Shown one piece after another: positions 5,276-9,532 of a stretch of 64,000 bases of DNA; the first letter of the stretch is position 1; every line of letters starts with the position of its first letter. This stretch comes from Candidatus Arthromitus sp. SFB-turkey (lineage in GTDB: Bacteria; Bacillota; Clostridia; Clostridiales; Clostridiaceae). Under the pieces are notes generated by a model that saw only the letters and a program-made list of their open reading frames with translations, was not told where the DNA came from and searched no databases. A program made the position numbers and the translations under genes. The stretch lies in assembly GCF_001655775.1 (NCBI RefSeq), contig NZ_LXFF01000009.1:1-64000 (forward strand). The letters are read 5' to 3'.

Positions 5276-6169
5276 CTATATAATCTTTACATTACTTACT
5301 TTTTGAGAAATATCTATTATAGTTTTGTTCCTCTTCTTAAAACAATTACTAACATAAGAAATAATTGCAAAATTATTTTTCCTAATAAGTCTACAAAGAA
5401 CACCAACTATTGTTAAATTCATATCTTTCCCTGCATCTAAATCGGGCAACTTAATAATAACTTTATTTTTATCCAAATACATATCCTTTGAACATAATCT
5501 ACACCCATTTAAAAATATACTCTTTTCACATACTAAAATATTTTCAGGAAATATATCTTTAAACAAAATCTTTTGCGCTAAATTAGTTCCATTATTCAAT
5601 AAATTAAAATTAAATAAAACATAAGCTCTTCCACATCTATTCAATAAATATGCTCTCTGGTTAATACAAATATTAGCATTCAATTCATCACACGCTTTTG
5701 TTAGATTATTAAAATTTTCAATATTATACATAATCTCTGATAATTTAAATCCATAATTCTCATCTATAAATAAATTATTTAAAGTATTACATCTACTACT
5801 CTCACTGTCCAATAAAGTTAATTTTAATAATCTATTTTCATCATTTGAATAAACTTCTGTAAAAAGCCCATTTGTATTAAAATCTGGATTAAAACCATTA
5901 TTATCAAAATTAGCTGTTCCACTAACATAAGAATATCTTTTACCAACATTATCTAAAATTAAATTATTTGTTATACCATTATTGCAATTATGATTTCCAA
6001 ACAACTTAATCCTCAACCTATAATAATCTGTATTACTACATGAATTACAATTTAAACTTCCTTGAATAAATTTATCAACATCATTACTGGAAAAAGAAAC
6101 CAACTCCTCGTATGAAGGAATAAATTCTGTAGACATTTTATTTGTGTTAATATTATTTAATTTATCCAT
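5276..6169 (-). CDS. Asn/Cys-rich protein with a DUF11-like domain
   Basis: 297 residues with no signal peptide or clear membrane helix, very rich in Asn (many NN pairs) and with about sixteen cysteines spread along the chain. Residues about 180-265 follow the DUF11/CARDB-like beta-sandwich pattern: NNGTNLAQKILFKDIFP, then NGCRL, then LPDLDAGKDMNLTIVG. In spore-forming Firmicutes Cys-rich DUF11 proteins are often found in outer spore layers or on the surface, so a spore-coat or exosporium role is possible but unproven. ATG at 6169 has GAGGA seven bases upstream. A strong terminator follows, so it is probably transcribed alone. Confidence 0.65.
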   Translation of the reverse strand: MDKLNNINTNKMSTEFIPSYEELVSFSSNDVDKFIQGSLNCNSCSNTDYYRLRIKLFGNHNCNNGITNNLILDNVGKRYSYVSGTANFDNNGFNPDFNTNGLFTEVYSNDENRLLKLTLLDSESSRCNTLNNLFIDENYGFKLSEIMYNIENFNNLTKACDELNANICINQRAYLLNRCGRAYVLFNFNLLNNGTNLAQKILFKDIFPENILVCEKSIFLNGCRLCSKDMYLDKNKVIIKLPDLDAGKDMNLTIVGVLCRLIRKNNFAIISYVSNCFKKRNKTIIDISQKVSNVKII

Positions 6170-8333: not shown

Positions 8334-8366
8334 AAAAATAAAGCTACTTTATAGCTTTATTTTTTT
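8332..8366. terminator. shared bidirectional terminator between convergent genes
   Basis: A 15-base perfect stem (8332-8346 with 8352-8366) and a 5-base loop. Both ends are runs of A or T, so it can stop transcription in both directions. It overlaps the stop of the exported-protein gene (8331-8333) and the last codons of the ArsC-like gene (stop at 8357-8359). Confidence 0.85.
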
Positions 8367-8719
8367 AATAAAAATTCTTCCCATTCCTTTTGCTTAAACC
8401 CAAAAAGTATAACTTTATCATCCATATATATAGGTCTTTTAATAAGCATCCCTTCTTTTGATAACATGTCGCAGCATTCATCAATAGATAAACTATCTAT
8501 CTTATCTTTTAAATTATTTTCTTTATATATTTTTCCATTAACATTAAAAAATTTCTTTACATCAACATCATACTTTTGAATCCAAGCTTTAATTTCATCT
8601 TTACTTGGAGTATCAGATACAAGAGATCTAAAATCAACTTCTATATTATTATTTTTAAGCCAATCCTTAGCTTTTCGAACACTTGTTCACTTTGAATAAT
8701 CCAAAAATAATCCTTTCAA
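8357..8719 (-). CDS. ArsC/Spx-family thioredoxin-fold protein with in-frame TGA at the catalytic Cys (candidate selenoprotein)
   Basis: Reading 8719 to 8357 in one frame gives 120 residues with a single internal TGA (8687-8689) at codon 11. Before it: LKGLFLDYSK. After it: TSVRKAKDWLKNNNIEVDFR. In YffB/Spx/ArsC relatives this is Y-x-K-C-S/G-T-C/S-R-K-A-K, so the TGA is exactly the nucleophilic Cys, with the downstream Arg kept. The rest is an undamaged, well-conserved family body: KKFFNVNGKIYKE, NLKDKIDSLS, EGMLIKRPIYM, VILFGFKQKEWEEFL. The start is TTG at 8719, with GAGGTGA five bases upstream. Either selenocysteine is inserted here or the gene carries one nonsense mutation; the intact remainder and the exact position favour Sec. 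The second Cys of CxxC is Val, as in mono-thiol ArsC enzymes. The substrate (arsenate or another) is unknown. Confidence 0.75.
8657..8673 (-). other. possible SECIS-like hairpin downstream of the in-frame TGA
   Basis: On the minus strand AAGCT and GGCTT can form a 5-base stem (one U-G pair) with the 7-base loop AAGGATT. The first loop G lies 21 bases after the TGA, within the 16-37 base spacing seen for bacterial SECIS elements. The stem is short. A second small hairpin (GAAC-AAGT-GTTC) overlaps the TGA itself. Weak support only. Confidence 0.3.
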
Positions 8720-8770
8720 AATTTTCACCTCTAATAATTTTATTTTCTACAATTATACACAATATAAATA

Positions 8771-8798
8771 AAAAAAGTAAGAGAAAATCTCTTACTTT
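8771..8798 (-). terminator. terminator of the DUF4163/DUF3298 gene
   Basis: Arms AAAGTAAGAGA (8774-8784) and TCTCTTACTTT (8788-8798) pair perfectly across a 3-base loop, followed on the minus strand by TTT runs. The stem contains the stop codon of the gene ending at 8792. Confidence 0.8.
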
Positions 8799-9532
8799 AA
8801 ATTATCAATAATTAACTCATCTTTAAAAACTGAATAAGGTATTTTAAATTCAGGAATACCTGCTGAATAAGGTGCTATTTCATACAATTGGAAAAATATA
8901 ACAATATCATCTTTTGTTAAATAATACTGAACGTTATCCCCAATACCTTTAAAATCATCTATAAAATAATTTTCAGGACTTTCATTCATTTTATCTAAAA
9001 TTATTTTATCTATTACTTCTTTATAATTTTTCTTACCTTCTTCATTAAAAATGTCTTCAATTTTTAAAACTTCTCCTGTATTTAAATCAAAATTATAATT
9101 TTTCACAAATGCCATAGGATGAGCTCCACCTGTAAACTGAATTAGTGTAACTCTTAGAGATAATATATTATCAACTATTTCATAATCAAAAGTAGACATT
9201 CCTTTATAGTTAAAAGACGGCGAAGTTTTTACAATTTCTTCTGGATATATATTAATAGACTCATTATAAATATCTTCTATATATTTCTTAAACTCGTAAA
9301 TATCCCCTTTAATTAAAATGTTTATTTTATTTTGAACATGCTCATTTCCCATTTTAACTTCTGGATACTTAAAATCAAACTCAATTCTTTTATTATTTTC
9401 TTTTAAATTTAAAGTATTTACAACAATGCCTTTATTATTAACTTTAGCAAAAGAAAAATTTAACCCAAAACACAAAGTTAATAACATAAAAATTAAAATA
9501 AAACCCCCAAATTTAAAAATACTTAATTTCAA
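8792..9532 (-). CDS. exported DUF4163/DUF3298 protein (RsiV/PdaC-like extracytoplasmic domain)
   Basis: 246 residues. A signal sequence or membrane anchor spans about residues 8-29. A DUF4163-like domain (about 35-130) follows, then a DUF3298 domain (about 135-235) marked by TLIQFTGGAHPMAFVKNYNFDL and the C-terminal YEIAPYSAGIPEFKIPY. The same pair of domains occurs in RsiV, the lysozyme-sensing anti-sigma factor, and in the peptidoglycan deacetylase PdaC. This protein has neither a cytoplasmic anti-sigma part nor a catalytic domain, so it is a stand-alone exported module, possibly ligand-binding. The start is TTG at 9532, with GGGGGGA five bases upstream. No sigma factor gene is adjacent. 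Confidence 0.8.
   Translation of the reverse strand: MKLSIFKFGGFILIFMLLTLCFGLNFSFAKVNNKGIVVNTLNLKENNKRIEFDFKYPEVKMGNEHVQNKINILIKGDIYEFKKYIEDIYNESINIYPEEIVKTSPSFNYKGMSTFDYEIVDNILSLRVTLIQFTGGAHPMAFVKNYNFDLNTGEVLKIEDIFNEEGKKNYKEVIDKIILDKMNESPENYFIDDFKGIGDNVQYYLTKDDIVIFFQLYEIAPYSAGIPEFKIPYSVFKDELIIDNLK

Follow-up and report, generated by a model that had tools for sequence, protein, structure and literature searches.

A gene of the turkey SFB (Candidatus Arthromitus sp. SFB-turkey) very probably encodes a selenoprotein with selenocysteine (Sec) at codon 11, most likely a monoselenol reductase of the TIGR01617 family; as a whole, this is the best explanation of the data. Sec decoding of the codon 11 UGA appears near certain, and a monoselenol mechanism appears likely. 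The gene lies in the window, the whole 64-kb stretch of DNA that was analysed (Table 1). The initial annotation had its coordinates right and left the strand unstated; it is the minus strand, and on the plus strand of the same segment stops are abundant. As had been described, a single frame of 120 codons is broken by the TGA alone, with YSK before and TSVRKAK after it in the translation, and family alignments place the TGA exactly in the invariant column of the nucleophilic Cys. The ribosome-binding site, previously called good, stands six bases ahead of the TTG start and is found before the rat SFB gene as well. A gene finder that ends frames at TGA would cut such genes short or drop them.

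Table 1. Positions of the selenoprotein candidates and associated features; locations without a locus, genome or contig label are window positions
Feature	Location	Strand	Detail
Predicted Sec-containing ArsC-related (TIGR01617) gene	8357..8719	minus	120 codons (8719 to 8360) plus TAA (8359-8357); codon 11 is TGA
In-frame TGA, predicted Sec codon, in the column of the family's nucleophilic Cys	8687..8689	minus	from reading frame and family alignments
TTG start codon	8717..8719	minus	ATG at the same codon in rat SFB
Ribosome-binding site AGAGGTG	8726..8732	minus	also ahead of the rat SFB gene
SECIS-like hairpin AAGCTAA[GGA]TTGGCTT	8657..8673	minus	loop begins 20 nt past the TGA
Intrinsic terminator of the upstream neighbour (8792-9532)	8774..8798	minus	1 found, 0.1 expected
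selD with in-frame TGA	L056, G000:C23:67776-68684		in the selD-selA-selB cluster
Putative Sec-peroxiredoxin DFTFVUPTE, TGA at the peroxidatic Cys	L207, G000:C27:46055-46447		turkey SFB
Putative Sec-peroxiredoxin DFTFVUPTE, TGA at the peroxidatic Cys	L206, G002:C102:1793-2185		third SFB genome
Sec-type ArsC-related gene beside rubrerythrin	L285 3157-3687 and L286 2395-5195		G744 and G794

The upstream neighbour ends in its own terminator, which argues that the Sec gene is probably transcribed on its own. The same scan found no sigma-70-like promoter on the minus strand, and an Rfam scan of the window gave no match at gathering score. Gene order around the Sec gene is kept across the three SFB genomes, namely the window's genome (G000), a genome taken as that of the rat SFB (G001) and a third genome of the genus (G002).

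The Sec form recurs among relatives. Homologues were collected from overlapping order, class and phylum samples, of which the order and phylum samples include the window's genome, and from a set of named loci, which does not. The order sample has a homologue in 91 of 225 genomes (E up to 1e-15), with TGA at the site in 6 of the 91. Homologues are present in 155 of the 391 genomes of the class sample (E up to 1e-10), and at least 5 genomes have TGA; the three newly met TGA genomes were read, with TGA at the site in each. The phylum sample yielded homologues in 76 of 398 genomes (E up to 1e-15) and TGA in 21 of the 76 (22 genes). Its listed TGA matches were all read individually, every one with TGA at the site, and its Cys matches were read in part (40 regions plus the loci returned by searches). 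The 80 named loci, kept out of 588 confirmed, have a Cys codon in 79 cases and TGA in one (L169, from a Ruminococcus MAG). Made non-redundant, the pool comprised 221 aligned proteins, from which 12 paralogues of the CFDT/CFET type, one protein of the CRGG type and one row with N at the site were dropped. There remained 31 distinct proteins with TGA at the site and 176 with Cys. The underlying samples overlap and are uneven, and the counts should not be read as natural frequencies. A look at this codon in relatives had been proposed in the initial annotation as a check on Sec, and both codon types are thus found. Within the aligned stretch, the 31 Sec homologues are all free of further TGA codons past the site. 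In a single case a second TGA stands 13 codons upstream, in front of the probable start codon. The viral contigs searched contained no relative. On contig C145 of G944, two Sec-type ArsC-related genes with a UTTC motif lie 2.7 kb apart (L222 and L220, at about 13.3 and 16.0 kb).

The earlier assignment to the ArsC/Spx family stands in general terms and can be refined. The protein scores 98.9 bits with TIGR01617 (arsC_related, cut-off 75.05), which makes it a member of that family, and 57.7 bits with Pfam ArsC (PF03960, cut-off 24); the models for arsenate reductase and Spx proper are missed, and the SFB form also lacks the resolving Cys. With NF041106 (ArsC family (seleno)protein) it reaches 16.8 bits (cut-off 85), and 0 of 29 genomes exceed that cut-off. 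Ten further Sec members, out of 28, were tested; they pass TIGR01617 and miss both NF041106 and the arsenate reductase (glutaredoxin) model TIGR00014. An AlphaFold2 model, made from 35 alignment rows with Cys standing in for Sec, has a mean pLDDT of 95.1 and a thioredoxin-like fold, with the Sec site just before helix 1. Among the chains compared, the best match is the ArsC-related protein 3gkx from Bacteroides fragilis (Z 20.2, rmsd 1.4, 116 aligned residues, 44% identity), followed by SACOL0876 (2m46; Z 18.5, 35% identity) and 3fz4 from Streptococcus mutans (Z 18.4, 33% identity). These TIGR01617-like Cys forms are closest in both sequence and fold, but the SFB protein has Sec in place of their first Cys and Val in place of the second.

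Two other functions deserve consideration. A selenium-using arsenate reductase of the ArsC type, with a single nucleophile and glutaredoxin as partner, is unlikely: the protein does share the fold of E. coli ArsC (1i9d, Z 14.2) and its single nucleophile (CGTSR, compared with UTSVR), but it scores only 35.6 bits with TIGR00014, for a cut-off of 106.05. Arg60, Arg94 and Arg107, which we take to be the catalytic set of E. coli ArsC, are preserved in one case, Arg94, which is kept as Arg95, whereas Asn59 stands in place of Arg60 and the protein has no counterpart of the Arg107 stretch. Structure titles among the fold matches name R60 and C12 mutants of ArsC. Moreover, a Pfam search of five neighbours in the window gave no ars gene. 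It is also improbable that the protein is an Spx-like redox regulator that binds RNA polymerase and uses Sec as a sensor. TIGR01617 carries the name Spx/MgsR family, and the fold is that of Spx (best Z 17.4; 17.3 for 1z3e and 15.9 for 7f75), yet the Spx models are missed (69.7 bits for a cut-off of 123, 55.5 for 159 and 51.7 for 152), the CxxC switch is absent, with UxxV instead, and Spx Gly52, presumably the residue needed for binding of the alpha subunit, is aligned with Asp53. With the ArsC and Spx models below cut-off and key residues missing, the comparison favours a thiol- or peroxide-handling reductase that would rely on a lone selenol, with an external thiol as partner.

The case for a lone selenol is built on the fourth motif residue, the resolving Cys. 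It is Cys in all 176 Cys forms and in 17 of the 31 Sec forms, a contrast with a Fisher p of 1.4e-13 in a test that ignores relatedness; the other 14 Sec forms have Val (10), Ala (3) or Ser (1). This amounts to a natural experiment on what Sec does for an enzyme. In all three SFB genomes the motif is UTSV. No Cys follows Sec in the aligned stretch of 11 of the 14 proteins; a CC pair stands 71-72 residues past Sec in turkey SFB and G002, and one other UxxV/A/S protein has a single Cys 70 residues past it. The rat SFB protein has no cysteine anywhere after Sec. A monoselenol reductase is most likely because the second Cys of the CxxC motif is Val and because the rat SFB protein lacks any Cys past Sec; counting against it, the CC pair of turkey SFB and G002 could act as an internal partner. 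In a monoselenol reductase, the selenolate would attack an oxidised substrate (a peroxide, a disulfide or the like), and an external thiol, for instance thioredoxin, would then regenerate the selenol from the selenenyl intermediate. We infer this chemistry for the SFB protein, together with a role in oxidative stress.

A tree of 86 rows, for which the motif was masked and whose bootstrap had not settled, places SFB (support 100/99) among Clostridiaceae and other Cys forms, and the 11 other UxxV/A/S proteins on a separate branch (97/86), with 3 changes at the resolving position and 10 changes between Cys and Sec. In an earlier tree of 145 rows there were 6 Cys-Sec changes, at least 4 of them forced; many forks in these trees are without resolution. 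The topology suggests that the resolving Cys was lost twice, separately, and convergence between SFB and the other bacteria is likely. A single clade for all UxxV/A/S proteins, which the 86-row tree does not recover, is not rejected by the AU test (p 0.268), so that two separate losses are suggested rather than shown. Tentatively, a broader scenario may be drawn. The Sec branch of TIGR01617 would be scattered in Bacillota and be missed by the Sec-ArsC models tested, and the gain of Sec would free a CxxC protein from its resolving Cys. In SFB and in a separate, deeper group, Cys would have changed to Sec and the partner then to Val, Ala or Ser, giving monoselenol enzymes reset by an outside thiol; SFB would keep the Sec machinery in a genome of 1.5-1.7 Mb for this protein and very few others.

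A search for the Sec genes had been named as a further check, and all of them are present in the turkey SFB genome: tRNA-Sec (65.1 bits, cut-off 47; UCA anticodon according to ARAGORN), selA (598 bits, cut-off 267.9), selB (348 bits) and selD (389 bits). Both selB and selD are over cut-off in 4/4 genomes searched (turkey SFB, rat SFB, G002 and a further genome, G009); among 14 control genomes, tRNA-Sec is over cut-off in 5, selB in 2 and selD in 2. In the turkey SFB genome, selD, selA and selB form one cluster on contig C23. A selD-selA-selB cluster is also apparent in G009, as judged by ORF order only.

Sec forms in SFB were searched among PF07355, PF00384, PF00578, relatives of ArsC and SelD only. 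SelD has one in-frame TGA in each of the four genomes searched (L055, L056, L057 and L058). Candidate Sec-peroxiredoxins are encoded in turkey SFB and G002 (Table 1); in rat SFB, the sole PF00578 match over cut-off is without an in-frame TGA. PF00384 (formate dehydrogenase type) gave no match in the three SFB genomes. PF07355 matched in one of the three, with a half-length, GrdB-like match in turkey SFB (L205, G000:C12:73277-73843) that was not found in the two others and follows a gene resembling, by eye, a PTS permease. The matched stretch contains one TGA and one TAA, which by eye look like gene ends rather than a Sec site.

Decoding of the TGA as an amino acid other than Sec, by suppression or a changed code, would suit a frame that is open whatever TGA encodes. 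It is very improbable in view of the encoded tRNA-Sec, SelA, SelB and SelD, of further in-frame TGA codons, one in SelD and one in place of the peroxidatic Cys codon of the peroxiredoxin, and of the restriction of TGA to the nucleophile codon in the ArsC-related genes. In the Sec reading, the UGA at codon 11 would be decoded by tRNA-Sec and SelB with the aid of a hairpin 13 nt downstream, and all of these components are encoded and conserved. The predicted product is a 120-residue protein of the TIGR01617 family with a thioredoxin fold and Sec just before its first helix.

In the bacterial SECIS model, a hairpin shortly past the UGA has a G at the start of its apical loop. The SFB hairpin has a 7-bp stem and the loop GGA. 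The three SFB genes differ by two changes in the stem, both of which preserve pairing via G-U pairs. A general description was set after the SFB hairpins had been seen: an uninterrupted stem, a loop of 3-8 bases with G among the first two, a score of at least 12 and a loop start 16-37 nt past the codon. Such hairpins follow the site in 27 of the 31 Sec genes, compared with 17 of the 176 Cys genes; the figures were 10/10 and 9/133 in an earlier, smaller set, and 5.6% of random 54-mers of the window contain one. The Cys control was needed because the conserved KAKDWL peptide forces part of the hairpin. By this test, the SFB gene carries a predicted SECIS-like hairpin as expected of a bacterial selenoprotein. 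Its stability relative to shuffles is modest (z -2.32, -1.51 and -1.46), and for ten Sec genes codon shuffling gave folding z values between -0.02 and -3.15. Synonymous depletion as a block past the TGA was not found in the SFB genes: codons for identical residues differ in 6/16, 4/14 and 3/14 cases over the 17 codons past the TGA, and in 19/66, 19/57 and 19/51 cases over later codons. The selD genes of turkey and rat SFB have a similar hairpin, AGAACC[GGA or GGG]GGTTCT, in a region no stabler than shuffles (z -0.14); scoring covered these two selD genes, as the motif search did not find those of G002 and G009. No simple hairpin of the same description follows the TGA of the Sec-peroxiredoxin genes of turkey SFB and G002.

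Both other SFB genomes share this TGA, their proteins being 80% and 71% identical to that of the window. Past the TGA, the three SFB genes are intact, free of the scattered stops and frameshifts that had been named in advance as marks of a pseudogene, and the three pairs have dN/dS values of 0.12, 0.19 and 0.19, which indicates that these codons are under purifying selection. The remaining alternative, a nonsense mutation that interrupts an ordinary gene, now decaying in a genome for which the published annotation lists 60 pseudogenes (PMC6979296), can practically be dismissed, because the conserved TGA and the low dN/dS past it argue against a pseudogene, no further stop stands in frame, the Sec machinery is encoded, and, among homologues whose aligned stretch contains a TGA, 31/31 carry it at exactly this codon. 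The initial annotation's preference for Sec at the catalytic Cys over a chance nonsense mutation is thus borne out by the Sec machinery, the TGA and Cys forms among relatives and the intact, selected genes.

Sec in an ArsC-like protein has been in print since 2006-2008 (PMC1794560). In the Global Ocean Sampling data, Arsenate reductase 1 has the motif UxxS (pfam03960) and Arsenate reductase 2 the motif UxxC (cd03032) (PMC2398784). A 2026 review includes TIGR00014 with UxxS and NF041106, 'Arsenate reductase-like protein', with UxxC in its list, and the terms TIGR01617, PF03960 and cd03032 do not occur in it (PMC13188914). The SFB protein resembles Arsenate reductase 2 / NF041106 in the ArsC-like thioredoxin fold, in Sec for the first Cys and in a presumed redox role, but differs in its low NF041106 score and in its motif, UxxV rather than UxxC. 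With Arsenate reductase 1 it shares Sec as the sole catalytic residue and the lack of a resolving Cys, but it belongs to another subfamily and is without two of the three ArsC arginines. While the Sec ArsC-like kind is already known, we found no report of a selenoprotein in SFB or of Sec in the TIGR01617 branch in the open-licence PMC literature. The main texts of SFB genome, survey and review papers contain no word that begins with 'selen' (PMC12942676, PMC13153320, PMC9482736, PMC7474095, PMC6979296, PMC6117376), and papers that pair SFB or Arthromitus with selenocysteine or selenoprotein concern diet, feed, disease and microbiota, going by title and the start of the abstract. The combination of selenocysteine, Spx and arsenate reductase retrieved a plant-hormone paper only from open-licence PMC. 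SFB are of importance as commensals of the gut that modulate immunity, and they are difficult to grow; if the present reading is true, a need for selenium would be relevant to culturing them and to the effect of host selenium supply.

The neighbours of the Sec gene in SFB give no functional clue. Elsewhere, a Sec gene lies beside rubrerythrin in 2 of the 9 neighbourhoods fetched, both from one genus (G744 and G794), and in G794 it is also near a gene for a FUR-family regulator; the other 7 showed no rubrerythrin on inspection by eye. This context lends thin support to an oxidative-stress setting. Within the window, positions 5276-6169 encode a 297-aa protein of turkey SFB. Four tandem relatives with 29-33% identity occupy the same place in rat SFB (L050 10463-14582), possibly as a lineage-specific expansion.
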